Made by a program: the position numbers and the translations under genes. A stretch of 30,822 nucleotides of DNA from a virus. Of the stretch, positions 1 to 30,645 are shown one piece after another. Positions within the stretch are counted from its first letter, which is position 1; each line of letters begins with the position of its first letter. The notes under the pieces are model-generated. The model saw only the letters and a program-made list of their open reading frames with translations, made no database searches and had not been told where the DNA came from. The stretch spans positions 1-30,822 of IMG/VR virus record IMGVR_UViG_3300025118_004666, one strand, 5' to 3'.

Positions 1-160
1 GTACCTGAACTACCCGAGGTACCTGAAGTACTACTGTCCTGAGAAGCACCAGAGCTACCTGAAGTACCCGAAATACCTGCGCTACCTGAAGTACCTGAGC
101 TACCTGAAGTACCTGAAGTACCTGTAGTACCCGAACTGCCTGAAGTGCCCCCACCACCTC
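1..160 (-). repeat. Tandem 9-bp-like repeat coding (G-T/S-S)n
   Basis: The plus strand shows repeated blocks such as acctgaagt, acctgagct and acccgaact. On the minus strand these read as GGT ACT TCA and GGT AGC TCA codons, that is Gly-Thr-Ser and Gly-Ser-Ser. The array is imperfect, is interrupted once by a codon block reading Ala-Ser-Gln-Asp-Ser-Ser, and continues beyond base 1. Confidence 0.9.
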
Positions 161-323
161 CACCGCCACTAATCTGCTGCCAAGCTTCGTTCTCTTTTAT
201 GTATACATTGTAGGGATCGTCAGTTGCATAAAAATTTGCGCCGTCAGATACAGTGTGTAAAACACCCTCTTTTTCGCTATCTAAGCCTACAAGCTTATCT
301 CCAACGTACCTTTTGACCGCCAT
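1..323 (-). CDS. Thr/Ser-Gly repeat virion protein, N-terminal part (runs off left edge)
   Basis: The reading frame opens at the ATG at 323-321 and stays open to base 1, so only about 107 residues are visible. The first ~58 residues (MAVKRYVGDKLVGLDSEKEG and following, then ATDDPYNVYIKENEAWQQIS) look like a small folded head. A run of seven Gly follows, then a collagen-like or silk-like tract of Gly-Thr-Ser / Gly-Ser-Ser triplets. Such tracts are common in phage fibre and surface proteins, so a virion surface role is likely, but this is inferred from composition and from the neighbouring fibre and glycosylation genes. No Shine-Dalgarno is seen; a GTGTAAT motif lies 11 bases upstream of the ATG. 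It is the gene immediately after the glycosyltransferase/DUF6165 cluster and is an obvious candidate acceptor for those enzymes. Confidence 0.8.
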   Translation of the reverse strand, partial: MAVKRYVGDKLVGLDSEKEGVLHTVSDGANFYATDDPYNVYIKENEAWQQISGGGGGGGTSGSSGTTGTSGTSGSSGTSGSAGISGTSGSSGASQDSSTSGTSGSSG

Positions 324-334
324 ATACTACTTAA

Positions 335-341
335 ATTACAC
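335..341 (-). promoter_or_regulatory. GTGTAAT motif before the Thr/Ser-Gly repeat gene
   Basis: One of eleven sense-strand GTGTA(A/T) motifs found in front of gene starts in this window. Here it reads AATGTGTAATTTAAG, 11 bases before the ATG at 323. Read as a candidate phage promoter element; this is inference. Confidence 0.4.
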
Positions 342-345
342 ATTA

Positions 346-735
346 TTAGCTATAATCTTCATAAGATTTTTCTTCTAATAACTCTGAGCCTGTGTGTATG
401 TTGATTTCTTTTTTAATTTCGGCTCTTTTATCGTTTGTTTGATAGACTTGGCGGGCTAACTGTATAAAGACAGCATCAAACTCTTGACTCTTCTCTTTTA
501 GTCTTATTGCGTCCTCTATCTCCCATAACTCTTCATTTATTTCTTTCAACTGCTCGTAAAAACCGTATTCTCTAAATACATGCCTGTACCAAGCTGGCTC
601 TCCAACGGTTCGCTTAATCGTGTCGTGCTCTTTTTGAATATTGACTAATTTCGATTCGTCTGTAATATTGTTAAGCTTAATTTCTAATATAGACAACTTA
701 TCTAATATTTCTCCATCTGATATTTCTACTTTCAT
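346..735 (-). CDS. DUF6165-like protein of glycosylation cluster
   Basis: 129 residues. The N-terminus VEISDGEILDKLSILEIKL and the following helical, charged sequence match the pattern I know for DUF6165, a small family of unknown function often found beside glycosyltransferases and LPS or glycan genes. The rest is predicted helical with Trp and Tyr in the centre (EPAWYRHVFREYGFYEQL) and no membrane segment or signal peptide. Its ATG overlaps the stop of the large glycosyltransferase gene by four bases (ATGA), implying translational coupling and a shared pathway. It may be an accessory or scaffold protein for glycan transfer. The family assignment is from memory; the function is inferred from context only. 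Confidence 0.65.
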   Translation of the reverse strand: MKVEISDGEILDKLSILEIKLNNITDESKLVNIQKEHDTIKRTVGEPAWYRHVFREYGFYEQLKEINEELWEIEDAIRLKEKSQEFDAVFIQLARQVYQTNDKRAEIKKEINIHTGSELLEEKSYEDYS

Positions 736-3700
736 AAAATCTCTCCGTGTATTAACACTTCTTTATAGTAATCATGGTGATCGTCTTTAGCTCCCGCCCA
801 GAACTCATCTGTTATATCGAACCCCAATACATCTGTAATTTTTAAATTTACTCTATCGTCTGATTTCAGTTTAACAATAAGTTTTATAGCTTTGGAATTT
901 TTGAGTTGGGCTTTGCTGGATTTTAAGCAATGAACTTCTCCGGAGAATTTTCTTACATTTGATAAAATAGTTTCATAATGTTTATCAAAAAGATCTATCT
1001 CGTAATCCTCTGCGTCAAATTTTAAAAAATCTATTTTCCTGTCTTTGTCCTCTTCTTTGACAAGGCGCAGTATATCTTCGAAATTAGCTGTTTTAATATG
1101 TACATCCTTTAGACTAGAGAAGCACATTTCTTTAATGATAACCTTTTTCTCATTCTCAACAGAAAACACACCCGGCAGCGAGCTTTCCTTTCCTTCTTGG
1201 AGGAAATAGTTATGGAGTTTCGTAACATCTCTTTCTTCTGGTAAAGTTGAGTAAAACAAATCTATATTATCGCTAAACGCCTCTACCCCTAAATATTTTA
1301 TATTTTTATGCCTATTTTTAAAATAAAAAACACCTCTCGAGCAACCAAGATCAACAACATAGTCACCATCTTCAACTTTGAAGAATTTTTGATATATATC
1401 TTCATCCCAAACTTCCCTTAAAACATGTCGCCAATCCATGTTGTCCTCCTTCCTGTATAGCTTCTCAACTAAGGCTCTATTTTCTATTTTGTTAATTTGC
1501 CTTTTGACCATTTCAAAAGTTATATGCTTCGAGCATTCGAAATGCCTTTCTGTTCCTTCGTGATCTGGGCACCAAAGCCAATTAGATCCATCGAGCTCGG
1601 ATCTATTCCAGCATGAGTTACAGACATCTTTATTGATTACCCTGTAGGGAGTATAAAATTCTGTGTTCTCGTTGCTGAAACCGCTGATTAAAACTACGTC
1701 TTTCCCTAAGCCCCAAGCTAGCCAAGACAACCCTGAGCCCAAACCTATAAAAAACTCACAATTATATAAATCAGTTATTCTTTCATGTAAAGAGTAGTCT
1801 CCTGTTTTATCTATTGCTCCTTTAGGCACGTGGTTCCTATGGTCGCCGTTACCGAAAGAAGGATGCTGATCTATGCAAACAACTTTATACCCTTTTGAGT
1901 TTAAATATTCAATTACCTGATCCCAGCCAGTAGGGTTATTCCAGTATTTACATTGGGAGGTTGACTGAACCCCTATGCAAACGTACTTACCTTCTATTGC
2001 TCTTTCTTTATTTAATACGTCTACTTTAGGTTTTAGTTCCTTATGTTTTAGGCCAAGGTAGTAAGAGCCTGCTCTTTGTTGTTCGTTTTGTTTTACCCAA
2101 AGTGGGGTATCTTCTTCCGACTCGCTACCCTTAAACCAGCCAACCTTAAGCTTCTTATCGAAGTCTATATGCTCCGCTTCCTGAAGGTTGTCTAAAAAAT
2201 GAACGTTTGGATAACTGTTTCTGTAAAGCTCATTTTTGTGGGTAAATAAATAAACGTCACAATCGTTTTGTTTTCTATATTCCTCCACGTAAGGAATCCA
2301 AGACAAGCAATCACCCAGCGCTGAGCTGCAAAATTCTATAAGAACTTTCTTTTTATCTCTCCTTTGATCTAGACTAAAATTAAAAACTAAATTCTTACAA
2401 AAGATATTGTATGAAAAAGGCATCCCCCCGGAAGCCCTCCTTATTAATTCTACTTCTTTTTTAGAGTCAGTTTGGTTCTCTGAGTCCATTAAGCAATAAA
2501 CATTTATTTCGAACTTATTATTTAACTCTTTAAGCTTATTGAAAACCTCAACTAGTTCTTTTTCTTTAAAACTCTTCATGTCAAAGAAAAAATAGTCCAC
2601 CTCATCTGAGAATTCGTTTTCGCAAAAGTCATGGTCAAAATACAGATCTTGAATCTTTTCTTTTTCAGAGTCTGGGAAAGGTCTATTTGTTATTAGACAA
2701 AGCCTTTTTCTGTCTTTTTCAAAATGTATATTCGACCTAGCTAATGCGCAGAGCTCATTAAAAAAATCATAATAAGTATGTAATATCTTATTATGTTGAT
2801 ATTGCTCCCCGGACTCTATGGCTTTAAATAGATTATTTTTAGAGACTCTATGTTGCTCTTCATCCATATTACCCGGAGTTGCGTGTGACCCGCCATGATT
2901 CAAGACTTTGTACATTGGGCGAGGAAATAAAACATAGTGCCCGTATTTCTGCAACAAGGACATTCTAATTGAATCCTCGGACACCGTCTTCTCGGGATTG
3001 TCAATTTCTATTTCAATTCCTTTTATATTTTTATGACCCCTTAATGCCCCAAAAAACCTAAAAGTCCTTAAATAATCCCAGTCAAATTTTCCAGCTTTCA
3101 AATCTTCTTCATGCTTATTCATATAACTATACCAATCCCCCTGAGGAAAGCTAAAATCTATATTAGTTATATTGCTAACATCTTTAACATTATCTTGGTA
3201 CTGATGGAACCATGTTGAAAAGGTAAATGCTTCCGGATTTTTCTTAAGCATATGATTTAAAAATTCTAACGACTTTGGATAAATTCCGTCATCCGCATCG
3301 ACTAGGGCTAGGTAGTCGCAGTCCTTTGTGACAAAATGCTGAGCATTCCAAAACATCTCCTTTTTGCTTTTCTGCTCACAAAAGATTACTCTGCTATCAC
3401 GGGAAGCTAAATCCAAAAGAGCTTTCCTGACTGCATCATCTTGACTAAAATCGTCAGTAACAAACCATTTCCAATCTTGATAAGTCTGGTCTTGTATTTG
3501 TTTGTACAGCCCCGGTACATACTTGACGTTATTATAAAAGCTTGTGTACAGGGCTATTCTAAAGTTGTCTTTTTTAACAGGTTCTTTTAGTTTACTTTCT
3601 ATGTACTTTTTGGTATCTACATCATCAATGAAAGTTACGCCGGGGTTATTTTCATATTTTTTATACAAATCGCAACTTTCTATCCTATTCATAAACACAG

Positions 3701-4556
3701 GCATGTCCCAAGACAAAGCCTCTTTAACGCTTAAAGGGTTAAGCTCCCTAAGAGAAGGAAACAAAAACAAGTCCATACATGAGTAAAACCTATCAACATC
3801 GTTCCTCTCTCCCCACACTTTACAATTAACAAGATCTGTATCTTCTATCCCACAATTACATAAGTAGCAGTCATTACCTATAAAATGAAACTGAACTTCT
3901 TCTTCAGTCATTTGCTCGGCTATATCATAAATAAACTTTTGGTTCTTATTGCCGTGAAAAAGCCCAACGTTTAAAACATGAAATTTTCCCGGATCTAAAT
4001 CTAGTTCCCTAAGAGCCTGTTCTCTGTTCGGTCTTTCTTTCTTGGGTATTTCGTAATCCCAGACATGACATTCAGCATCAGGGAAAGTCTCTTTTATTTT
4101 TCTTGGGTGATAGTCCGACACACAAACGTACGCATCAGGAATATGAATTTTACGGCTGAAATCAAAACTATTGTCGTGGCAAGTTTCAAATATTTTATAT
4201 TTCCTATCCTTGCTGTATATTTTTTCTAACAGTTCTTTGGGGAACCCATTATATTCAAAATTTTCAGGTATTTCGTTAAAATGTATTACGTCAGGCTCAA
4301 ACTCTTCTATAACTCCCCATAACCTATCTTTCTCTTCTCTCCAATTATCTGAAAAGCAAGGGCCAATACATTCATGATTCTTCTTACCTATTAAGTCGAT
4401 TATTTTATCTTTTTGAATATCGTAGCTGCCGTAATTGTTGAACTCAGCAACAAATACTTCATTATCGAGCATGCTCACTTTAAGCATCTCGTATAACCAC
4501 TGGGGAGATCCGCCAGTAGATAAATGCATGGGTACATATAATATTTTTCTTTTCAT
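732..4556 (-). CDS. Four-domain glycosyltransferase: GT-B, GT2, TibC-like heptosyltransferase, FkbM methyltransferase
   Basis: 1274 residues from the ATG at 4556, which overlaps the previous stop as TAATG. The frame is open to an ATG at 4616, but the earlier part overlaps the upstream gene and lacks homology character. Domains: residues 1-330, GT-B fold transferase (ILYVPMHLSTGGSPQW start; late FLFPSLRELNPLSVKEAL motif). Residues 332-560, GT2 GT-A transferase with DADD near 420. Residues 735-1025, GT9/BAHT-type heptosyltransferase with ALGDCLSWIPY, CKYWNNPTGWDQV, GLGSGLSWLAWG and a four-Cys finger (C979, C982, C996, C1008) ending WCPDHEGTERHFECSKHIT. This is strikingly like the iron-finger autotransporter heptosyltransferases TibC and Aah. 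Residues 1065-1200, FkbM-type SAM methyltransferase (VVDLGCSRG; IDFLKFDAEDYE). The GT9 part probably uses ADP-heptose and modifies Ser/Thr. The acceptor is inferred to be the phage's own repeat proteins. Confidence 0.88.
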   Translation of the reverse strand: MKRKILYVPMHLSTGGSPQWLYEMLKVSMLDNEVFVAEFNNYGSYDIQKDKIIDLIGKKNHECIGPCFSDNWREEKDRLWGVIEEFEPDVIHFNEIPENFEYNGFPKELLEKIYSKDRKYKIFETCHDNSFDFSRKIHIPDAYVCVSDYHPRKIKETFPDAECHVWDYEIPKKERPNREQALRELDLDPGKFHVLNVGLFHGNKNQKFIYDIAEQMTEEEVQFHFIGNDCYLCNCGIEDTDLVNCKVWGERNDVDRFYSCMDLFLFPSLRELNPLSVKEALSWDMPVFMNRIESCDLYKKYENNPGVTFIDDVDTKKYIESKLKEPVKKDNFRIALYTSFYNNVKYVPGLYKQIQDQTYQDWKWFVTDDFSQDDAVRKALLDLASRDSRVIFCEQKSKKEMFWNAQHFVTKDCDYLALVDADDGIYPKSLEFLNHMLKKNPEAFTFSTWFHQYQDNVKDVSNITNIDFSFPQGDWYSYMNKHEEDLKAGKFDWDYLRTFRFFGALRGHKNIKGIEIEIDNPEKTVSEDSIRMSLLQKYGHYVLFPRPMYKVLNHGGSHATPGNMDEEQHRVSKNNLFKAIESGEQYQHNKILHTYYDFFNELCALARSNIHFEKDRKRLCLITNRPFPDSEKEKIQDLYFDHDFCENEFSDEVDYFFFDMKSFKEKELVEVFNKLKELNNKFEINVYCLMDSENQTDSKKEVELIRRASGGMPFSYNIFCKNLVFNFSLDQRRDKKKVLIEFCSSALGDCLSWIPYVEEYRKQNDCDVYLFTHKNELYRNSYPNVHFLDNLQEAEHIDFDKKLKVGWFKGSESEEDTPLWVKQNEQQRAGSYYLGLKHKELKPKVDVLNKERAIEGKYVCIGVQSTSQCKYWNNPTGWDQVIEYLNSKGYKVVCIDQHPSFGNGDHRNHVPKGAIDKTGDYSLHERITDLYNCEFFIGLGSGLSWLAWGLGKDVVLISGFSNENTEFYTPYRVINKDVCNSCWNRSELDGSNWLWCPDHEGTERHFECSKHITFEMVKRQINKIENRALVEKLYRKEDNMDWRHVLREVWDEDIYQKFFKVEDGDYVVDLGCSRGVFYFKNRHKNIKYLGVEAFSDNIDLFYSTLPEERDVTKLHNYFLQEGKESSLPGVFSVENEKKVIIKEMCFSSLKDVHIKTANFEDILRLVKEEDKDRKIDFLKFDAEDYEIDLFDKHYETILSNVRKFSGEVHCLKSSKAQLKNSKAIKLIVKLKSDDRVNLKITDVLGFDITDEFWAGAKDDHHDYYKEVLIHGEIL

Positions 4557-5596
4557 TATTCTTTTGCTAAAATTTCTTGAGCTGCTTTGTAAACTTGGCC
4601 CCATTCTGGCTGACATTCATAAGAAGGTCTATTCTCTAAGCAGAACGGCAAAGGGGGTACGCTGTTTATCGTCCTATGCTCTATGACTGAGTGCTTCGGG
4701 TCTGACGCGCAAAAAGCAGTACAGGTCCCCCCTACAAATGTCATCTTGTAGTCCTGAGACCCATTCCTGAAGGGGGCTCTCCATAATGGGTTTACTGAGG
4801 CTCCTATATACAAAATTTCAGTATCTGTACAACCTGCTAAGTGAAGCTGCCCAGTGTCCATAGTTATGCATAGTTGAGCATTTTTTGTTATATAAAAATC
4901 TTGATCCAAGGTTGTCCTATTCATAAAACTAACCCCATTAAAATTAAAATTCTCAAAGTCGTAACAAGATTTGTTATGGCTATATTGTCCCGGTTCTATC
5001 CCCACATCAAACCCTACTAAAGCTACGTCATACCCTAAATCATTAAGCCTTTTTATAAGATTTTCATAACTGTCTTTTGGCCAAGTTCGACTAGGCCAAT
5101 TTTGTCCTATGTGTATGACAACGTAGTCTTTTGTGTTTAAAAATTCTCTATCTTCCTTCTCGAACTCTATCTTACCCGGAAAATAATCACAGTGTAATTC
5201 ATCTGGTCTTAAGTCGAACCCTATTTCGGTGCAATGTATTTTTCGTATGTCGAAAGCTCCATATTTTTTCTCTATTCCTGTTTTATCGTTTTGGCCTATT
5301 GAGTTGAAAGTATTGAAAACCTCATATTCTTCGTAATATGTATCTTTGAAATCATCAGCATTGATATGAAACTTGACATACGGATTATTTTCAAAAATAA
5401 AAGGCTTAGAAGAACACACGATAATCTCCTTAGCATAAGACTGCGCCAGCTTCCTGAGCGTAGGGGTTGCGCTAAGGGTATCTCCAAAAGAACCGGAGTT
5501 TATCTTTAAGACTACGTCTTTGGCTTGTAACTGGCCTCCACTTTTACTCTTGTCTAGGGTTAAGTGCGAACCCCCATAAAAAGAAACTTCGTTCAT
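4556..5596 (-). CDS. GT9 (heptosyltransferase) family protein, copy B
   Basis: 346 residues with the GT9/ADP-heptose transferase pattern. The N-terminal Rossmann half carries VVLKINSGSFGDTLSATPTL and the C-terminal half carries CITMDTGQLHLAGCTDTEIL, the usual donor-binding and acidic region of the GT-B fold. The C-terminus has cysteines in pairs (GGTCTAFCAS, then PFCLENRPSYECQP), suggesting a metal finger like that of autotransporter heptosyltransferases. It is a tandem paralogue of the next gene upstream, with long stretches alike, for example INSGSFGDTLSATPTLRKLA against INAFSFGDILCATPTLRKLA. AAGGAAA lies just before the ATG at 5596. The 3' end overlaps the large multidomain gene as TAATG. 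It lacks the extra transferase and methyltransferase domains, so it may extend or vary the glycan or serve a different acceptor. Confidence 0.85.
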   Translation of the reverse strand: MNEVSFYGGSHLTLDKSKSGGQLQAKDVVLKINSGSFGDTLSATPTLRKLAQSYAKEIIVCSSKPFIFENNPYVKFHINADDFKDTYYEEYEVFNTFNSIGQNDKTGIEKKYGAFDIRKIHCTEIGFDLRPDELHCDYFPGKIEFEKEDREFLNTKDYVVIHIGQNWPSRTWPKDSYENLIKRLNDLGYDVALVGFDVGIEPGQYSHNKSCYDFENFNFNGVSFMNRTTLDQDFYITKNAQLCITMDTGQLHLAGCTDTEILYIGASVNPLWRAPFRNGSQDYKMTFVGGTCTAFCASDPKHSVIEHRTINSVPPLPFCLENRPSYECQPEWGQVYKAAQEILAKE

Positions 5597-5597
5597 A

Positions 5598-6635
5598 TTA
5601 TTTCCTTAAAATTCTTAATGCAGTATCTATGACCTTTTCTGAGCTAGGTTGGCACTCGAATGTAGGTTTTTCTTCAAGGCAGAAAGGCATGGGTGGTATG
5701 CTATTAACTGTTCCGTGTACCATAACAGAGTATTTTGGATCAGAAGCGCAAAACAATTCACAGTCCCCTCCCACAAAGTCAACTTTGTATTCCTGTGAAC
5801 CATGTCTATACGGAATCCTAAATTTTGGGCGTATTGAAGAACCAATATTTATTATATGTGTGTCCGTGCATCCAGCAAGGTGAAGTAGTCCTGTATCTAA
5901 TGTTATAAAGACTTCTGAATTTTTAATCACATAATGAACTTCGTCTAATGAAGTTCTATTCATAAAGCTTAGTCCTTTGAAATTTAATTTAGTAAAATCA
6001 TAACAAGACCTATCAGACTCCCAAAGTCCGGGCTCAGGTGGAAGGTCGACACCTACCAAAGCAACAGGATATCCAGCTTCATTTAAAGATTTGATTAGTT
6101 TTTCGTATTTCTCTTGGGGCCAAGTCCTACTGGGCCAAGTTTTTGTTACATGAATAGCAACATACTTTTCTTCTTTTATGAATTTAGAGCTAGTGTCGTC
6201 GAACTTTACTGGCCCCGGATAATAGTCGCAGTGCATCTCCTCTGGGCATAAATCTAAACCTATATCTGAGGAATGCACTCTTCTTAGATCAAATCTAGCA
6301 TAGTTGCACTCTATGCCGTTTTTGTCAGGGGATCCTACGCAATTATAACTATCGAATACCTCGTATTGGTCGTAATACTCTTCTTTGAAGTCGTTCTTTT
6401 CTATGTGGAATTTTACATAAGGATTATGTTTAAAAATGTCACGTTTATTAGAACAAACTATTATCTCTTTAGCGTAAGCTTCAGCTAATTTTCGAAGTGT
6501 CGGCGTTGCGCATAATATGTCCCCAAACGAAAAAGCGTTTATTTTTAGAACTACGTCTTTAGATTTTAGCTGGCCTCTGATTTTTTTTGCACTAAACAGG
6601 GGCGACGCTTCCTTGTAGAAAGAGGCCTTATTCAT
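5598..6635 (-). CDS. GT9 (heptosyltransferase) family protein, copy A
   Basis: 345 residues, paralogue of the gene that follows. GT9 features: VVLKINAFSFGDILCATPTL at the N-terminus, VAIHVTKTWPSRTWPQEKYE at the start of the second half, and VFITLDTGLLHLAGCTDTHI near the donor site. The C-terminal Cys pattern (GGDCELFCAS and PFCLEEKPTFECQP) is conserved between the two copies, so it is probably structural, perhaps binding metal. No signal peptide or membrane segment, consistent with a cytoplasmic enzyme acting before virion assembly or lysis. No strong Shine-Dalgarno precedes the ATG. The 38-base gap to the lectin-like gene suggests co-transcription with the fibre module. Divergence between the copies means this is an old duplication and not a recent one. 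Confidence 0.85.
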   Translation of the reverse strand: MNKASFYKEASPLFSAKKIRGQLKSKDVVLKINAFSFGDILCATPTLRKLAEAYAKEIIVCSNKRDIFKHNPYVKFHIEKNDFKEEYYDQYEVFDSYNCVGSPDKNGIECNYARFDLRRVHSSDIGLDLCPEEMHCDYYPGPVKFDDTSSKFIKEEKYVAIHVTKTWPSRTWPQEKYEKLIKSLNEAGYPVALVGVDLPPEPGLWESDRSCYDFTKLNFKGLSFMNRTSLDEVHYVIKNSEVFITLDTGLLHLAGCTDTHIINIGSSIRPKFRIPYRHGSQEYKVDFVGGDCELFCASDPKYSVMVHGTVNSIPPMPFCLEEKPTFECQPSSEKVIDTALRILRK

Positions 6636-6673: not shown

Positions 6674-7522
6674 TTAGTAGCCATCTCCGTACCTATGCTT
6701 AACAGCCATGCAATTCCCAAAAACTTCCCCGCTGGACAATGCCCTATTATAAGCCGAAGCCATCCCTACGTTTACATTTAAGCCATAGGTTGCGTTTCCT
6801 CCTATGTAAAACTGTTGGTAAGACCCAACTTCTGTTCCAGTATGAAATCCTGAAGTATTTGCGACTGGAAAGGAACCTGTTCCTTTTACTTTTCCATCTA
6901 AATAACCTATCATCTTACTTGTCGACCCGTCATATGTCATAGCAATATGTCTAAACTCTGTTCCAGAAATAGAAGGGTAGGTCCTGTCAGATAAAACAAC
7001 ATCCATTCCAGTCCAAGGATGGTTGACCCCTAGATCAACTTTATTAGTTGAAATCGTAGCGTTTATTCCGCTTATTTCTCCCCCTTGGCCCGTGATGCAC
7101 ACAAAACCATAGTTGTAGCCACTTAGGTTAACAGGATTCACTGCTGAGTTTGTGTTACCAAATAAAACAGCTCCGTTATCGGGTGGCGAATTTAAACCAG
7201 AGTCTTTGATTTCAAAAAACATTTCTAACGTAAAACTTGACTCCTCGTCTTTTAAGATACCTAAAGACCTGAGTCCTGTAAAATTACTCCCAGATACAGC
7301 TCCGTGGGTATTTTCTGAGCTGTCGGGGTTTCTGAATTTATAATAGCCACTTGTACTATCGTATAGCCCGGTATTTTGTAATTTTACATCAAAACCGCTG
7401 GGAGTTAAATCTCTCCAGAATTCCGTATTGTGGTCGTAGCTTCTAGAGCTATAACCGTCTACTCTAAATACCAAACCGTCTGTGTTTACTCTATATTTTC
7501 CGTAATTTACTTTACTTGACAT
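6674..7522 (-). CDS. LamG/concanavalin-like virion lectin domain protein
   Basis: 282 residues. The ATG at 7522 is chosen over one six codons upstream because GGAGGAGG stands eight bases before it and the reading then begins MSSKVNYGKYRVN. The body is a laminin-G/concanavalin-like jelly roll: an opening strand GLVFRVDGY, ESSFTLEMFFEI, EFRHIAMTYDGSTSKMIGYL (the strand-turn-strand signature of this fold) and QQFYIGGNATYGLNVNVGMA followed by YNRALSSGEV. This fold commonly binds glycans, and in phages it is frequent in fibre or tail-tip proteins that touch host polysaccharide. The position directly after another LamG-containing protein, with TAA and ATG almost touching, supports a shared adsorption structure. 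Specificity cannot be read from sequence. Confidence 0.8.
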   Translation of the reverse strand: MSSKVNYGKYRVNTDGLVFRVDGYSSRSYDHNTEFWRDLTPSGFDVKLQNTGLYDSTSGYYKFRNPDSSENTHGAVSGSNFTGLRSLGILKDEESSFTLEMFFEIKDSGLNSPPDNGAVLFGNTNSAVNPVNLSGYNYGFVCITGQGGEISGINATISTNKVDLGVNHPWTGMDVVLSDRTYPSISGTEFRHIAMTYDGSTSKMIGYLDGKVKGTGSFPVANTSGFHTGTEVGSYQQFYIGGNATYGLNVNVGMASAYNRALSSGEVFGNCMAVKHRYGDGY

Positions 7523-7523
7523 T

Positions 7524-9554
7524 TTAATATCCTCCTCCAAATCCTCCTATGGATTCTCCAGCCGAAACAGAAAACTCATAAGAGGCGACGTTGTTAACTA
7601 GATCAAAATCCCTAGAACCTTCTATGTAAGAATACAAAGCATCATTCCTACTGAAAGTTTTGGAGTATAGCGCAGTTTTATATATTTTCCCTTCTAAGTT
7701 TGTGTTAGTGGTTGTTTTATCGAGTTGAGGAAAATCCCCAATAGACCCTTTAAGGTCGCTACCGTCAAAAAAATCAGTATTATTAATTTTGTATTTTGAA
7801 AAAGTCGATATAGACTTAGGAGAGCCTTCTTTTAAAATTATTGAATTGTCGTCTTTAAAAGAGATTAAGTCGGTAGAATCTTCCCCATAGAAAGGGTTCA
7901 TTGTTTTTATCAATAAAGACCCTTCGCTAAATTCAGATATACTACTCAAAGATTTGTATACATAAAAACCTTTAGCCTCTTTAATATTTGACCAAGAAAC
8001 AGAAATAGCAGAATTTTGCTTATTTGTAATAACTTTTTTAAGCCCTGACGCTGCAGACTCTCCGTTTTCGTTATATGCACTTACTTTATAATTTACCGTA
8101 TTGCCCTTACTGAAACCTCCTTGATTGACCGCTTTTTCGACCTCTAGTCCTCCATCAGATAATAGATATGTCGATCTAGACGAGGCGAACTCTAACGTAC
8201 TTCCAACATTGGGAAAAGAATATAAACTTATATTAGTAGGGGGCAAAAGATTAGAAACAGCTTTACAATCCCGTATGTTTCCATTTATAAAAAACTTAAC
8301 CTTATTAGAAGACTTTGTCATATCAACAGAAACAACCAAATGGGTAATTTTAGAATCTTCAATGACGGAATCAGTTGTGAAAACAGTAGAAGAAAAACCA
8401 AACTCATTATAAAAATCACAATAAACTTTGCCGTTATCTATGTATATATGCTGCTTTCTTGATTTATTGCTATTGTTCGTAAAACTAGATCCCTCCGACT
8501 TATCTGAATACAATAAAGTAGATATACCCTCACTCAAGGAGGACGCCTTAAACCAAAACTCGTAAGTCTTTTTGTTTGACGATCCAGCCGTAAGACTTGA
8601 GCTAGATCCAGACTTTGTAGCGCTAAGACCTAAATTCGCGTAGCTATCTTTTGTGTATAATGGCAAGGCTTCGTCCGAAAAAGACATCCCATATACACTG
8701 AAAGAATTCTTGTTGCCACTTATATCTTTTAGACTGGCTGCGTTATCTCTGGGGCTGTCAAATCTAGTAAACTGAGTCCTGAGCGAGCCTTTCTCTAACT
8801 GCGGGTTTTTATATAAGGCCCATCCCCTCAGACGTTCGCCTTTTCCGGATGCTCCATTAGTCGTTCCTTCGTGTGCCCAAAAATAAGCAGTATGAGGCAT
8901 CGTGCTTTGTATTTTTCCGCTTACTCCCGAAGTACCAGACGTCCCAGTCCCAGAGGAACCAGAAGACCCAGAGGAGCCCGCAGTGCCTGCAGTAGCCACG
9001 ATTAAGCTCTCTAACTTTGGAGTAAATGGAATCGTAACCACTTGCCAAGTTCCAGTTTTAGAAAAGTCGTAGAAGCCATAATATTTGCCATCTTGACCTG
9101 TCGCTTTTATAGAGATTACTGAGCCTAAACCTGACGTTCTACTGTGTCTCTTGGAGATAAATACTTCGCATGAGAAAATGTATTCTTGGCCAATTCTTAA
9201 TTTAAGAGAATCATGAGGACCAGAGCCACTTGAAGAAGAAGCAGAAAAAGTATGCATCCCCATTAATCTATTAGATGGTCCAGTAAAATTATACTTATAT
9301 ACCACATCATTTTCAGACATATGACCCGTAGCTAAAGATTTATACATTCCTTGTAAATTAGGATCTTTGTCTTTGTATATTCTATAAAATCCGTTTGTTG
9401 AGCCACCTAGTCTCACAGAAAAATCTGAGTTCGTTTCTGCTGTCGGCAGCAAGTTAGTGGTAGGTTGCCCCGGGTAGCTTTTGTAGTAGAGTTCATTAGT
9501 GTACAGTTTAATACCGTCCACCTTCTTCCTAATATGTCCATTGCTAGCAGACAT
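7524..9554 (-). CDS. Large adhesin-like virion protein with CBM-like, Thr/Ser-Gly, LamG and Fn3-like parts
   Basis: 676 residues. Residues ~32-260 look like a carbohydrate-binding jelly roll of the type found in phage tail proteins (NLLPTAETNSDF start, GQEYIFSCEVFIS, TGTWQVVTIPFTP, then GWALYKNPQLEKGSLRTQF at the end). A Gly-Ser/Thr repeat (residues 190-213) is inserted between two of its strands. Residues ~320-450 form a LamG-like domain (KTYEFWFKASSL; ITHLVVSVDMTKSSNKVKFF). Residues ~470-580 resemble a fibronectin III module (VNYKVSAYNENGESAASGLK; ISVSWSNIKEAKGFYVYKSL). The C-terminus ends in a Gly-rich GGFGGGY. The start overlaps the upstream stop as TAATG. It is probably a receptor-binding or decoration fibre, and the inserted repeat is a candidate O-glycosylation site. 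Confidence 0.8.
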   Translation of the reverse strand: MSASNGHIRKKVDGIKLYTNELYYKSYPGQPTTNLLPTAETNSDFSVRLGGSTNGFYRIYKDKDPNLQGMYKSLATGHMSENDVVYKYNFTGPSNRLMGMHTFSASSSSGSGPHDSLKLRIGQEYIFSCEVFISKRHSRTSGLGSVISIKATGQDGKYYGFYDFSKTGTWQVVTIPFTPKLESLIVATAGTAGSSGSSGSSGTGTSGTSGVSGKIQSTMPHTAYFWAHEGTTNGASGKGERLRGWALYKNPQLEKGSLRTQFTRFDSPRDNAASLKDISGNKNSFSVYGMSFSDEALPLYTKDSYANLGLSATKSGSSSSLTAGSSNKKTYEFWFKASSLSEGISTLLYSDKSEGSSFTNNSNKSRKQHIYIDNGKVYCDFYNEFGFSSTVFTTDSVIEDSKITHLVVSVDMTKSSNKVKFFINGNIRDCKAVSNLLPPTNISLYSFPNVGSTLEFASSRSTYLLSDGGLEVEKAVNQGGFSKGNTVNYKVSAYNENGESAASGLKKVITNKQNSAISVSWSNIKEAKGFYVYKSLSSISEFSEGSLLIKTMNPFYGEDSTDLISFKDDNSIILKEGSPKSISTFSKYKINNTDFFDGSDLKGSIGDFPQLDKTTTNTNLEGKIYKTALYSKTFSRNDALYSYIEGSRDFDLVNNVASYEFSVSAGESIGGFGGGY
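7531..7538 (-). promoter_or_regulatory. Strong Shine-Dalgarno GGAGGAGG
   Basis: On the minus strand GGAGGAGG lies eight bases before the ATG at 7522, inside the 3' end of the upstream gene. It decides the start of the LamG-like protein and suggests high expression; most other genes in the window have much weaker sites. Confidence 0.75.
8916..8987 (-). repeat. Gly-Ser/Thr repeat insert in jelly-roll domain
   Basis: Codes for TAGSSGSSGSSGTGTSGTSG plus VSG (residues 190-213 of the adhesin-like protein). It uses the same triplet vocabulary as the repeat at the left edge of the window. Confidence 0.85.
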
Positions 9555-10880: not shown

Positions 10881-10914
10881 AGAATAAAAAAAGCCCCCTC
10901 CGAAAAGGGGACTT
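10881..10914 (-). terminator. Rho-independent terminator after major capsid gene
   Basis: Minus strand: stem AAGTCCCC (10914-10907) pairs with GGGGGCTT (10898-10891) around the loop TTTTCGGA, with one G-T wobble. It is followed by TTTTTATTCTTT. It lies 31 bases after the capsid stop codon and should end the head transcript. Confidence 0.9.
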
Positions 10915-10944
10915 TGTTAAGATTGCAGTTAGTTTTCTTGTCTA

Positions 10945-12114
10945 TTAGACCGCCAAACCAACAATTGCACGAGCATCGATACAGACTCTTCCCTCTTCCA
11001 AAGAACCATAGAAACCAATTCTCTCATTTCTCTGAGTGAACTGATCATCTGGAACCGTAGTGAAGGTAGCGCCAGCAGCCGCATCATCCTGAGCAATAGC
11101 ACGGACAAATGCGCCCTTACTATTATCAACACCAACAGCGATCTCATGAAGGCTAGTACCAGAAAACGCAATCGCCGTGTTAGCTGTGCTAGCATGAGGA
11201 GCAATGTTGCCACCGTCAAAACTATCAAACAAGGTGTTGTATTTCTGTCCAGTTCCGAACTCGTTAAGTTCAACGATATTCACGCCGTAGATCTCCTGCA
11301 TACCTGCCTGATTAAACACATCAGTACGAATGCTATCCGGCAATGGAATAGAGCTTGTCCCTGAATCGGACTGTCTTGTATTCATTGGCTGATAAGCAAA
11401 TGCACGGATCTGCTCCTTGATCTCAGGGCTGACATACAAGTCAGTAATACCTGAGCTATAAGGGGCATCAGCAGTACCACCCGCCCAAGATTGATTGATT
11501 CTCTTATTGAGAGTCATCAACTTGTTGAGGTCAGCAAGCTGGAATACGCCGGTGTTATACGCCGGAATAACATGCGAACCAGTAGTCAAACTATCAACGC
11601 CAACAGAGGCGGCAGTAACATGACTTGTGCTCGCTTTAGCCAAAGCGAAGAGAGCCACTGCCCAAGCATTTCTTTCCTGCTTGAGGAGCACTTCCTGAGC
11701 CATACGCTCGATAAGCTTGCTGACAACATCCAGCCTGCCTTGTCTTGCGTACTTTTTGGTGATCGAAACAGCTGTATCTAAACGATAAGTAGCGATCTTC
11801 AACTCTTGAATCGCAGAGACGTCCTGTGAGGTCGGAAGACCACCAGCAACATTCTGTGACCATACGCTAACGTAACCATCATTGGTTTCGTTATAGTACA
11901 AGTCGAGAGGATAGCTTGCGCTCTCGTCCTGATTGAACGGAGCATCGGTATAAATAGCACCTGCCGTAGCGGCCTGCTGCAAAACCTTCTGGACCACAGG
12001 GCCTAGAAAAGCCGCAAATGCCTCAGAGGCTTCACGTGCAACAAGCTGATTTTTCGAACCCATCGATTTGATGAGTTCAACCTGTTCTGGGGTATTTTTC
12101 AATTTAAGTCTCAT
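10945..12114 (-). CDS. Major capsid protein (HK97-fold type)
   Basis: 389 residues. The features fit a phage major capsid protein: an N-terminal helical arm (NTPEQVELIKSMGSKNQLVA), a long helix with KLIERMAQEVLLKQERNAWA, the P-domain segment ITDLYVSPEIKEQIRAFAYQ, and a C-terminal region with FTQRNERIGFYGSLEEGRVC before IDARAIVGLAV. Base composition is more GC-rich and codon choice cleaner than in neighbouring genes, as expected for the most abundant protein. AAAGGAG lies ahead of the ATG, and a strong terminator follows the stop. It comes after the protease-scaffold and the decoration candidate, the standard head-gene order. Fold family is inferred from pattern and context, not by search. Confidence 0.9.
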   Translation of the reverse strand: MRLKLKNTPEQVELIKSMGSKNQLVAREASEAFAAFLGPVVQKVLQQAATAGAIYTDAPFNQDESASYPLDLYYNETNDGYVSVWSQNVAGGLPTSQDVSAIQELKIATYRLDTAVSITKKYARQGRLDVVSKLIERMAQEVLLKQERNAWAVALFALAKASTSHVTAASVGVDSLTTGSHVIPAYNTGVFQLADLNKLMTLNKRINQSWAGGTADAPYSSGITDLYVSPEIKEQIRAFAYQPMNTRQSDSGTSSIPLPDSIRTDVFNQAGMQEIYGVNIVELNEFGTGQKYNTLFDSFDGGNIAPHASTANTAIAFSGTSLHEIAVGVDNSKGAFVRAIAQDDAAAGATFTTVPDDQFTQRNERIGFYGSLEEGRVCIDARAIVGLAV

Positions 12115-15973: not shown

Positions 15974-17137
15974 TTAGGGGGCCTTATCCAAATCCCCGAG
16001 TTTCATTAATTCGTCAAGTTTTTCCTCAGGAGTCGCTATACCGCCAATAATAGTAAAGACAGTCAGGTTCTCCTTGTCTCCGCTATATATGCCCCTATGT
16101 ACTACACTTCCAGAACTTAAAATTCTAGTTAACTGATCAAAAGCTTGATCAAGATTAGATTGAGGTACGTTATCCAGAACCTCTTTTCCTCCGATTAAAA
16201 TAGCCCCAGCTGTATTAGCTGTTGTGATATCTATTCCTCCAGACATACTCCCTGCTTGAGCTATGCCTCTAACTGCTCTAGATATACTAATGGAATCCTT
16301 CCAGTCCGGAACTGGGGTAGCCCCAAAAACAACTATGCCAGAATCCAAGACACTCTTATAGTCGCTAGAATCAAAAGATGAATAAGAACTATCTTTCGAA
16401 GCTGTCATATTAAATAGGTGAAAAACTCCAGCCATACTCATGTTAGCTGTCTGCCAAAAATTAGAAACAGAAACATTGGAATATATCTTACTGGTTTTTT
16501 CGTTATCTATGATTATTAAAGGAGAGACAGTGCCCTTCTTTACTAAATCACATGCCTCTTTGAGTGTTTCATGAGCGTTAGCATTAACCTTCCTACCTTC
16601 TGAATATTTTGGCAGAGCTAAGATGACGCCAACTTTCTTACTGTCAGCACCAATAGCTTCGTGAAGCTCCTGACAGGTTTCGACTAAAGGAACCAAAGTT
16701 CCTGCTCCAGAACCTCCTCCAGCGCCAGCACAAACAAACACCCTATCTACATCGTCACCAAAAGATCGACGCATGAAATCTAAAACGTCATCTCTTTTTT
16801 CAGAGAAACATTTTCTAGCTACAGATTTATCTTTGCCCGCTCCTCCAGAACCTATGCAAAGTTTATTGTCTACATTGACGCTGTTTAAGTCCTGCTGGGC
16901 TGTATTGATGATGCCTATTTTTCTATAACCCAATTTATGGAAAGTCTCCGCTATTCTAGATCCGCCTTGACCAGCCCCGATGAAAGCGAACTTAAAGGCT
17001 CCATCAATTGTATCTTCTACTTCTTCTTTTTTCTCCGGTTCTTCTGGGGGAAGTGGGATGTCCGGAACGATGATATCTATAGAATCTGATCCCATGTACT
17101 GATTAACGTCTTGTATATTTTCTGTATTTTCACTCAT
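15974..17137 (-). CDS. FtsZ/tubulin-superfamily GTPase
   Basis: 387 residues. An acidic Pro-rich N-terminal extension (residues 1-46) is followed by an FtsZ/TubZ-like GTPase. Loops visible: T1 at 52-60 (FIGAGQGGS), T3 at 96-102 (GSGGAGK), the tubulin signature T4 at 138-147 (GAGGGSGAGT), LPKYSEGRK near 175, and IIIDNEK near 209. After a helix comes SSFDSSDYKSVL (254-262), which aligns with the FtsZ T7 loop NVDFADV: both Asp (D256, D259) are kept and Asn is replaced by Ser. The activation domain follows, ending in an acidic tail. A polymerising GTPase is therefore likely; in jumbo phages PhuZ centres the phage nucleus and moves capsids. Here the gene lies four bases from the portal gene, inside the head module, unlike typical stand-alone phage tubulins. 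Confidence 0.85.
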   Translation of the reverse strand: MSENTENIQDVNQYMGSDSIDIIVPDIPLPPEEPEKKEEVEDTIDGAFKFAFIGAGQGGSRIAETFHKLGYRKIGIINTAQQDLNSVNVDNKLCIGSGGAGKDKSVARKCFSEKRDDVLDFMRRSFGDDVDRVFVCAGAGGGSGAGTLVPLVETCQELHEAIGADSKKVGVILALPKYSEGRKVNANAHETLKEACDLVKKGTVSPLIIIDNEKTSKIYSNVSVSNFWQTANMSMAGVFHLFNMTASKDSSYSSFDSSDYKSVLDSGIVVFGATPVPDWKDSISISRAVRGIAQAGSMSGGIDITTANTAGAILIGGKEVLDNVPQSNLDQAFDQLTRILSSGSVVHRGIYSGDKENLTVFTIIGGIATPEEKLDELMKLGDLDKAP

Positions 17138-26307: not shown

Positions 26308-26628
26308 TTACGCTTTCTCGTCTTCCATTGGTGCTATCTTCTTTTCGAGTCTTAAACCCTTGATGTCTTCATTTGGTATATCTACTCTGGTTTTAGCGTC
26401 TGCAAAATAGAAAGTTGTGGATCTTACTCCAACTCTTACTACCCTACAGGCTCTTCCTCCCATACTGTAGACGTCATCAGTTTTTATTCCTCCGAAAAGA
26501 GACATGGATATTGCAGCTGCGAAGCTAGTTATAGTCTCTTTGAAAATTAAACCCACCGCTCCCGCGATAAGTAACCAACCGTGCTCGCCGATAAAATTCT
26601 GACCGGCATTTGCGATTTGATCTTCCAT
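26308..26628 (-). CDS. Minimal MscS-like channel module, copy A
   Basis: 106 residues from the ATG at 26628; a GTG at 26646 would add six residues but has no spaced ribosome site. Residues ~17-45 resemble MscS TM3, the pore-lining helix (AVGLIFKETITSFAAAISMS). Residues 51-95 resemble the MscS beta domain (DDVYSMGGRACRVVRVGVRS, then IPNEDIKGLRL), including the conserved R-S/T-T-x-F and IPN pattern. TM1, TM2 and the C-terminal alpha-beta vestibule are missing; bacterial MscS has about 286 residues. It could make a small pore or act on host MscS by mixed assembly. Product sits in the inner membrane. It is divergent from its paralogue 58 bases away and precedes phoH. Confidence 0.75.
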   Translation of the reverse strand: MEDQIANAGQNFIGEHGWLLIAGAVGLIFKETITSFAAAISMSLFGGIKTDDVYSMGGRACRVVRVGVRSTTFYFADAKTRVDIPNEDIKGLRLEKKIAPMEDEKA

Positions 26629-26640
26629 ATTAATATATAT

Positions 26641-26670
26641 ATACACCTTTTTCTTAATTAGAAGTGTAAT
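26641..26670. promoter_or_regulatory. Divergent GTGTA(A/T) pair between the two mini-MscS genes
   Basis: Minus strand GGTGTATATATA at 26646-26640 points to the left gene. Plus strand AGAAGTGTAATTATTT with GTGTAAT at 26664-26670 points to the right gene, 16 bases before its ATG. Both occur in a spacer of only about 58 bases, as a compact divergent promoter pair would. Confidence 0.5.
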
Positions 26671-26686
26671 TATTTATTACTTAAGC

Positions 26687-27118
26687 ATGGAGATCCTTGG
26701 TGTAGCCCACAATGACCCCGAAATACAGCAAGCCGCAGAGCAATTAATAGGCTCGTACGGCTGGTTGGTTCTTTTAGCCTTTCTAGGCATCCTTTTCAAA
26801 GACGCCATACATAAGGCCGCGGAGGGACTATTGGTATGTGTTGGAAAAGACTTTTGTAACGATGATGTTTTATACATAAGTGGACGACAGGCTAGAATAG
26901 TAAGGGTAGGATTTTTAAAAACAATTTTCTACATGACAGACCGCGGAACTAAAATGATAGTCCCAAATGATAGATTAAAATTGTTAGTTATAGAAAAGAA
27001 GCTCCCATTGAATGGAGGCTTTCATTATTTGTACAAAGGTGGAGAGGAAGGCTACGAAGATCAAAAAGCCATAAGAGAAAAGATGAAGGAGCTCCCAAAA
27101 TTACCTGATGGCAAATAA
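26687..27118 (+). CDS. Minimal MscS-like channel module, copy B
   Basis: 143 residues. Same layout as copy A: residues ~24-51 are the TM3-like helix (GWLVLLAFLGILFKDAIHKA), residues 59-105 the MscS-like beta domain (DDVLYISGRQARIVRVGFLK, then IVPNDRLKLLVIEKK). It has a longer, charged C-terminal tail (~38 residues, ending MKELPKLPDGK) that copy A lacks. Paralogy with A is visible in the order DDV-x-S-GRxxRxVRVG...FY...D...IPN/VPN. TM1, TM2 and the vestibule are missing. Inner membrane; possible roles are osmotic protection, ion leak during lysis timing, or interference with host mechanosensitive channels. The neighbouring genes are membrane-associated small proteins. Confidence 0.75.
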   Translation: MEILGVAHNDPEIQQAAEQLIGSYGWLVLLAFLGILFKDAIHKAAEGLLVCVGKDFCNDDVLYISGRQARIVRVGFLKTIFYMTDRGTKMIVPNDRLKLLVIEKKLPLNGGFHYLYKGGEEGYEDQKAIREKMKELPKLPDGK

Positions 27119-27728: not shown

Positions 27729-28214
27729 ATGTTTAATATGTTTAGAAGACTATTCGGCAAAAGGGTTTCCACTGTTAGAGAATGCCCCAAGTGTGGTTTC
27801 CAAGGTAATCCTAGGCAATTCAAGAAAGTAAAAGCAAAAATGACAACTGACTATTCATACAGTTCTAACGGTAGCGACGGATCTGCTGGATCCGCTGGTG
27901 ACTCTGGTGTTTCTTCTAGTGGGAGCTCTGGAAGCTCTGGCGTTCCAACCCCACCTGTGACTTCAGACCCAACGTCGTCTGGTAGTGATGGTTCTGGTGG
28001 TTCTGATGGCTCTGGCGGGTCAACTGGCGCTCCGACTCCCGATCCAGCCCCACCTGTAACTTCAGACCCAACGTCGTCTGGTAGTGATGGCTCTGGCGGG
28101 TCAACTGGTGCTCCGACTCCAACCCCGACTCCAGATCCAGCCCCACCTGTAACTTCAGACCCAACGTCGTCTGGTAGTGGTGGATCCGATGGCTCTGCTG
28201 GGTCCGGGGCTTAA
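27729..28214 (+). CDS. Zinc-knuckle plus Gly/Ser/Pro repeat protein
   Basis: 161 residues. The N-terminus is basic with one CxxC pair (ECPKCGFQG); no second pair follows, so metal binding is uncertain. From residue ~37 on it is low complexity: SG/SD/GS strings and a repeated block APPVTSDPTSSGSDGSGGS, present three times with long in-frame spacing. The block also carries PTPDP stretches. Such Gly/Ser/Pro tracts resemble flexible linkers or surface decoration, and they share the Ser/Gly/Thr richness of the virion repeat proteins. GAGGAAAGG stands before the ATG. Role unknown. Confidence 0.65.
   Translation: MFNMFRRLFGKRVSTVRECPKCGFQGNPRQFKKVKAKMTTDYSYSSNGSDGSAGSAGDSGVSSSGSSGSSGVPTPPVTSDPTSSGSDGSGGSDGSGGSTGAPTPDPAPPVTSDPTSSGSDGSGGSTGAPTPTPTPDPAPPVTSDPTSSGSGGSDGSAGSGA
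27951..28183 (+). repeat. Three long direct repeats in frame
   Basis: The sequence ccacctgtgacttcagaccc and its continuation aacgtcgtctggtagtg starts at 27951, 28050 and 28143. Spacings are 99 and 93 bases, both multiples of three, so the reading frame is kept. Copies two and three have gta for gtg in the first part. Confidence 0.85.
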
Positions 28215-29664: not shown

Positions 29665-30645
29665 ATGGTCTCAACTAATTGGATAGACTCTACTTTCTGG
29701 GTTAAACTAGACGCAGATAAGTACAACTTCCCAAATGCATACGGAATCTCTTTAAGAGACATGGATTGCGGTACGGTATTCTCAAGTTTCACATCAAAAA
29801 AATACGGTCTTAAAAGAGGACAAGTTCCCGAAGGATTTATCTTCCTAAAAGCAGACGGAGAACCCCCTGACACCTTTGATCGTTTTAGAGGCTTTGAGCT
29901 TTCTATTTACGATTTAAGTGTCGATGACGACAATTCTCGAAAAGAATTTTATAATGAAAAGTATATTGTTAACGGTAATGCTTCTCCAGTAGATAATTTT
30001 AAATTTAATTGTTGGCCTTTGTCGTATCATACGTGGGCTTATACTCATGGAGATATATTTTATAGAGAGTTCTATAAAGGGATGATCGAGGAAGGGGATA
30101 TCGTCGTAGATGCTGGTGCACATATAGGTGTTTTTTCTCGTTACGCTTTAACCCAGAAATGTTCTCGAGTTTACTCGTTTGAGCCAAACCCTGAAAACTT
30201 AGAATACTTAAATTTAAATATAAGAGAATTTAAAAAGGCAACTATTTTTCCGTACGCAATATCTTCGAAGTCTAATCTAGAAATTCCATTCGAAATTAAT
30301 GCAGATGAAAATTCTCAGATTAATTTAGGTGAAAGTCGCTATGCAGGAGCAGTCCCCTTGTGGGCTTCTGTGCCGGGAATTTCTATAGACGACTTTGTAA
30401 AAATTTTTAATATTGACCATATAGATTTCTTAAAATTAGACATAGAGGGGGAAGAGTACCCATTAATAGAAAACTCTTCTTTTAATAATGTTAGAAAAAT
30501 AGCAATTGAGTATCACCCCAGAAATATTGCCCCAACTATGGGACCATTAGAGCATTATGATAATATTTTAAAAAAATTGGGATTTAGCAACACCAGAGGT
30601 TCTGAATTAAAATATAATTCTGTAATATTATACGAAAGAGCATAA
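29665..30645 (+). CDS. FkbM-family SAM-dependent methyltransferase
   Basis: 326 residues. SAM-binding motif I is IVVDAGAHIGVFSRYA (~146-161), followed by YSFEPNPENLEYLNLNI and, late, IDFLKLDIEGEEYPLIENSS, the hallmark of FkbM methyltransferases. These modify sugar hydroxyls or other small groups and are common in glycan clusters. The N-terminal ~115 residues are unlike the core and may recognise the substrate. A second FkbM domain is fused to the large glycosyltransferase at the other end of the window, so both may O-methylate the same glycan. It sits behind a sigma70-like promoter, apart from the other cluster members. No signal peptide. Confidence 0.88.
   Translation: MVSTNWIDSTFWVKLDADKYNFPNAYGISLRDMDCGTVFSSFTSKKYGLKRGQVPEGFIFLKADGEPPDTFDRFRGFELSIYDLSVDDDNSRKEFYNEKYIVNGNASPVDNFKFNCWPLSYHTWAYTHGDIFYREFYKGMIEEGDIVVDAGAHIGVFSRYALTQKCSRVYSFEPNPENLEYLNLNIREFKKATIFPYAISSKSNLEIPFEINADENSQINLGESRYAGAVPLWASVPGISIDDFVKIFNIDHIDFLKLDIEGEEYPLIENSSFNNVRKIAIEYHPRNIAPTMGPLEHYDNILKKLGFSNTRGSELKYNSVILYERA

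Follow-up and report, generated by a model that had tools for sequence, protein, structure and literature searches.

The stretch of viral DNA analysed here (the window) is a 30.8-kb IMG/VR virus record (IMGVR_UViG_3300025118_004666, positions 1 to 30,822) that includes genes for a terminase, PhoH and further phage proteins as well as a predicted capsid and portal block. On the minus strand, 3' of the head genes, lies a cluster that runs from lectin-like virion genes through two consecutive GT9 genes and a gene for a multidomain glycosyltransferase to a DUF6165 gene and a truncated collagen-like gene (Table 1). An earlier reading of the sequence alone (the sequence-only reading) had proposed that this cluster is a phage self-glycosylation system containing three GT9-type units. 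All three were recovered: a pair at 4556-5596 and 5598-6635, and a third within the long open reading frame (ORF), where the domain placed at residues 735-1025 of a 1274-residue protein corresponds to residues 755-1045 in the 1294-residue numbering used here. The shorter protein, of 1274 codons, would result from a start at the homologue-like MKRKILYVPM (start at 4556).

Table 1. Features of the glycosyltransferase cluster and adjoining genes in the window. BAHT, bacterial autotransporter heptosyltransferase; pLDDT, predicted local distance difference test score.
Feature	Coordinates	Strand	Evidence or remark
Start of collagen-like (G-T/S-S)n fibre protein, cut by contig end	3..323	-	homology to L019 protein
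DUF6165 protein, 129 aa, between BAHT gene and collagen-like gene	346..735	-	PF19662 E 6e-16
Multidomain glycosyltransferase, GT4 + GT2 + BAHT/TibC-like + weak methyltransferase-like C-terminus	732..4616	-	1294 aa from first ATG
Weak FkbM/methyltransferase-like C-terminus, residues 1066-1217	966..1421	-	sub-threshold Pfam hits (E about 0.02); phrog_8156 E 7e-4
BAHT/TibC-like catalytic domain, residues 741-1044	1485..2396	-	TIGR04414; TibC 4rap; Foldseek best matches all TibC chains
Predicted four-Cys iron finger C999, C1002, C1016, C1028	1533..1622	-	aligned with TibC C339/C342/C358/C370
GT2 domain, residues 353-495	3132..3560	-	PF00535 E 2e-10
GT4 domain, residues 198-322	3651..4025	-	PF13692/PF00534
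GT9 enzyme, WaaF/WaaC-like, second of tandem pair, own Cys4 cluster	4556..5596	-	PF01075 41 bits; TIGR04414 19.6 bits
GT9 enzyme, first of tandem pair, own Cys4 cluster	5598..6635	-	PF01075 57.5 bits; AlphaFold pLDDT 75, top folds WaaF 1psw and TibC
Lectin-like virion protein	6674..7540	-	weak Laminin_G_3; phrog_8510 virion structural protein
Virion-like protein, short TAGTAGSSGSSGSSGTGTSGTSG tract; second possible acceptor	7524..9554	-	weak Laminin_G_3; tract

The long ORF matches TIGR04414, the model of autotransporter strand-loop-strand O-heptosyltransferases (BAHTs), with 337.2 bits (E 1e-100) against a curated cut-off of 200 bits, a family match that lies far beyond chance. Its closest relatives of solved structure are TibC 4rap and 4rb4 (E 1e-67), and the window domain shares 42% identity with TibC over 293 aligned positions. 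The key residues of TibC are D110, T226, K230, R286 and W305, together with the iron ligands C339, C342, C358 and C370 (PMC4358343). All nine are kept in the window domain, with the catalytic D110 and the sugar-binding T226, K230, R286 and W305 corresponding to D769, T886, K890, R946 and W965. At the position of TibC P300, the residue of stereoselectivity, the window domain has G960, and it is therefore predicted to accept both ADP-D,D- and ADP-L,D-heptose. An alignment of 10 phage homologues revealed that D, T, K, W and the four finger cysteines are invariant. The finger and the NPTGWDQV and SGLSWLAWG motifs singled out previously are thus present and align with TibC, and TibC was also the first structural match of an AlphaFold model of residues 610-1060 (pLDDT 79). 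A PHROGs search of the glycosyltransferases returned no BAHT-type or GT9 family and a weak methyltransferase match alone. Of the accessory domains named in the sequence-only reading, GT2 was found in this protein, along with GT4, while the FkbM-like C-terminus stayed below the cut-off.

The same profile search separated the long-ORF domain from the tandem pair, whose members reach only 19.6 and 37.0 bits against TIGR04414. We therefore rejected them as BAHTs; describing the pair as TibC-like had been an overstatement, that term fitting the long-ORF domain only. The two proteins, 57% identical to each other, are classified as WaaF/WaaC-like GT9 enzymes. They belong to the family of these lipopolysaccharide (LPS) heptosyltransferases and, as modelled for one of the two, have a similar fold; they differ by an extra invariant Cys4 cluster, their location in a phage gene block and scores far under the curated cut-offs. 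The shared cysteines (C-x3-C-x22-C-x8-C) are spaced differently from those of the BAHT finger, and since their region is poorly predicted in the modelled protein (pLDDT partly below 50), a metal finger in the pair is a guess.

The collagen-like gene lies 409 bp downstream of the BAHT gene. Its 107 visible codons include a 42-residue Gly-X-Y run and share 82% identity over 51 residues with the N-terminus of a 1006-aa collagen and Peptidase_S74 protein of a related locus, L019 (compared loci are numbered with the prefix L); the L006 homologue has the same two-domain composition. Virion-like neighbours with (G-S/T-S)n tracts, as anticipated, are thus found at 3-323 and, with a short tract, at 7524-9554. 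The intervening DUF6165 gene is kept at the same place in L006-L009, L019 and L020.

The expected association of BAHTs with Ser/Thr-Gly repeats holds in both directions and in related as well as unrelated phages. Collagen (PF01391) was detected in 34 of 45 BAHT records and in 4 of 40 random viral records (Fisher p 8e-10); with records of 40 kb or more the counts were 29/34 and 2/15, respectively. Reciprocally, when the sole criterion for picking records was a DNA pattern encoding GTSGSSGTSG or GPQGPQGP, BAHTs occurred in 15 of the 30 former and 0 of the 20 latter (p 8e-5), and in 0 of 40 random records. The type of collagen differs too: S/T-type tracts make up 45 of 49 collagen-tract loci with a BAHT versus 10 of 30 without, and the median share of Ser plus Thr at X and Y positions is 0.78 (proline 0) versus 0.32. 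In BAHT loci Y is Ser at a mean of 0.66 and X is Thr (0.42) or Ser (0.32), whereas at Y the collagens of the other loci are poorer in Ser (0.30) and richer in Thr (0.25). An S/T-collagen was located within the fetched flank of 26 of 104 BAHT loci, with at most one gene in between in 13 of these 26.

A profile built from ten phage BAHT domains detected BAHT-like domains in at least 594 IMG/VR viral stretches and in 327 stretches of bacterial genomes; a scan of bacterial genomes with a single BAHT sequence gave no match. Four GenBank phage records match as well, including huge phages and the cultured Microcystis phage Mel-JY01, whose enzyme matches TIGR04414 from model position 9, with a weak PF21129 match. 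Upstream of the Mel-JY01 BAHT gene lies a 1016-aa S/T-collagen ORF (PP395634.1, 2-3052), a Gly-Thr-Ser collagen-like frame on the plus strand; the annotation of the record at this place consists mostly of hypothetical proteins encoded on the other strand. Openly licensed papers yielded nothing that links BAHT enzymes to phages. A quick tree was computed from 84 viral and 35 bacterial BAHT domains, the bacterial sample being drawn from the best 80 matches; a single branch divides the viral from the bacterial set, a split supported at only 69-78 with a distant outgroup. A recent transfer of the gene from bacteria is disfavoured by this separation, but with such support and sampling transfer could have run in either direction. 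Some relatives have two BAHT domains (L019 at 10894-11778, L303, L312 and L314); in L019, L303 and L312 one copy is fused and the other shorter and diverged. A record titled 'uncultured bacterium' (L096), with a BAHT beside an S/T-collagen, is probably a phage fragment.

Added support for the glycosylation reading comes from genes predicted to supply ADP-heptose. In three phages (L037, L077 and L088), proteins best matched to TIGR02199 and TIGR02198 are encoded next after the BAHT gene, and a convergent (GSS)n collagen gene comes after them. TIGR02199 describes heptose-1-phosphate adenylyltransferases (HldC-like) and TIGR02198 heptose-7-phosphate kinases (HldA-like); the scores are under the equivalog cut-offs, so that these proteins are divergent relatives of presumed function. 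HldA-like matches were obtained in 5 of 45 BAHT records and, once and borderline, in 50 controls, and GmhA exceeds its cut-off in one huge phage. A Mel-JY01 'cytidylyltransferase like protein' was considered as HldE and rejected, its match being weak and generic. No ADP-heptose gene was found in the 30.8-kb window fragment; here the donor would have to come from the host or from phage genes beyond the fragment.

Taken together, these data make it probable that the cluster is a protein O-glycosylation module, with which the phage would decorate its own collagen-like fibre. With ADP-heptose as donor, the BAHT-like domain would heptosylate serines, of which those at position Y of the G-(T/S)-S triplets are the likeliest targets; TibC modifies Ser and not Thr (PMC4358343), which makes Y-Ser the natural candidate site. 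Extension of the sugar would then fall to the GT4 and GT2 domains fused to the BAHT-like domain and to the GT9 pair, with a cap possibly added by FkbM-like methyltransferases. The modification could stabilise a proline-free triple helix, shield the fibre or tune its binding. The recurrence of the BAHT/Ser-collagen pairing in many phages suggests that these phages sugar-coat their own fibres; of the self-glycosylation proposed initially, the BAHT finger and the repeat co-occurrence stand and the TibC-like label for the tandem pair does not, and a glycosylated virion is what we infer.

Comparable decorations are known. BclA, a glycosylated collagen-like spore protein, likewise has collagen-like triplets bearing O-glycans, although its sugars and enzymes differ and it is not viral. 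To our knowledge, the mycobacteriophage system uses different glycosyltransferases and acceptors, with no BAHT or collagen reported. As in the system proposed here, Che8 and its relatives encode glycosyltransferases that are thought to act on virion proteins (Freeman 2023, as cited in PMC11256854). The mimivirus collagen hydroxylase/glucosyltransferase L230 offers a case of a virus glucosylating its own collagen-like protein, but there glucose is placed on hydroxylysine by unrelated domains in a eukaryotic virus (PMC9614988).

Several points weigh against O-heptosylation of the fibre. Known BAHT acceptors are beta-helix loops rather than collagen triplets. The co-occurrence tests take contigs as independent, though many are related; 11 of 45 BAHT records have no collagen, 15 of 30 S/T-collagen records (at least 44 kb, all fragments) have no BAHT, and in one BAHT group tens of kb separate the collagen from the enzyme gene. 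On short contigs that break off within the repeats, some capsid-protein relatives have an S/T-collagen but lack a BAHT. BAHT absence proves little, however, because the contigs are fragments often broken inside repeats. Two further capsid relatives (L316 and L317) have neither BAHT nor S/T-collagen, and GT4 was found in 3 of the 15 S/T-collagen records without BAHT. As for the enzyme, the window protein shows no TibC-type N-terminal beta-barrel: TIGR04414 aligns only from model position 70, and AlphaFold predicts an alpha/beta region there (pLDDT 50-80). Deleting the barrel kills TibC activity (PMC4358343). The hydrophobic beta-hairpin thumb tip involved in ring assembly is not found either, TibC F265/V266 being replaced by D925/H926; F368 of the thumb region is retained as F1026. 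Dodecamer formation and heptose transfer from ADP-heptose to Ser also characterise the BAHT family. Since barrel and thumb tip are missing while Mel-JY01-type members match nearly the whole model, the window domain is the catalytic core of a BAHT, set in a new architecture. In common with TibC and AAH, it has the core, the Asp base, the sugar-binding residues, the Cys4 iron finger and a Ser-Gly-rich candidate acceptor; it differs in being phage-encoded, fused to GT4 and GT2, without TibC-type barrel or thumb tip, and paired with a collagen-like candidate acceptor.

The foremost alternative, which we consider unlikely, is that the cluster alters the host LPS or another surface glycan, for phage exclusion or receptor change, the GT9 pair acting as core heptosyltransferases and the BAHT-like domain having drifted to a glycan acceptor. 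The similarity of the tandem enzymes to WaaF/WaaC agrees with this, and glycosyltransferases in host-recognition regions of marine phages, such as pelagimyophages, are usually so read (PMC7029224). However, the domain has kept its BAHT-specific iron finger together with the sugar-binding residues, and the enzyme is linked to Ser-type and not Pro-type collagens and sits within a virion gene block. Less probable still is that the domain glycosylates another virion protein (one of the lectin-like products of 6674-7540 and 7524-9554, or a head protein), the collagen link reflecting shared tail-fibre gene blocks. Every close relative has the lectin-like genes next to the cluster, 7524-9554 carries its own short S/T tract, and mycobacteriophage capsid proteins are cited as glycosylated (Freeman 2023, in PMC11256854); yet S/T-collagen is the feature that recurs near the enzyme across distant BAHT phages, whereas the window's lectin-like genes occur only in close relatives among the loci compared. 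Heptosylation of an autotransporter of the infected host would parallel the action of bacterial BAHTs and agree with the enzyme's membership of the BAHT sequence family; it is very improbable, given that phage BAHTs form a branch apart from the sampled bacterial ones and co-occur with phage structural genes, and that the gene and domain survey of the window recognised no autotransporter among the cluster neighbours, a collagen-like fibre gene being there instead.

Extending O-heptosylation of fibres beyond this locus is more speculative. We tentatively suggest that many tailed phages may make long collagen-like fibres devoid of proline and O-heptosylate the Y-position serines of these fibres with BAHT-type enzymes of their own; the sugar would take over the stabilising role of hydroxyproline, and some phages would supply their own ADP-heptose. 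If so, protein glycosylation across a wide set of uncultured phages would gain a named enzyme class, sugar and acceptor, the nature of the puzzling Gly-Thr-Ser repeat proteins would be explained, and phages would provide an example of collagen decorated with sugar. Many phage glycosyltransferases that are currently taken to target host LPS or DNA would also have to be read differently.

Elsewhere in the window, a stand-alone FkbM methyltransferase gene (PF05050) occupies 29665-30645 (plus strand), and a 161-aa protein encoded at 27729-28214 (plus strand) combines a CPKCGF motif with GSDGSGGSDGSGG repeats, another Ser-Gly-rich tract, distant from the cluster. A 387-aa GTPase of the tubulin/FtsZ family (PF00091, over cut-off; 15974-17137, minus strand) adjoins the predicted portal gene. 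Finally, the genes at 26308-26646 (minus strand) and 26687-27118 (plus strand) are a divergent paralogue pair (E 2e-19), facing away from each other.
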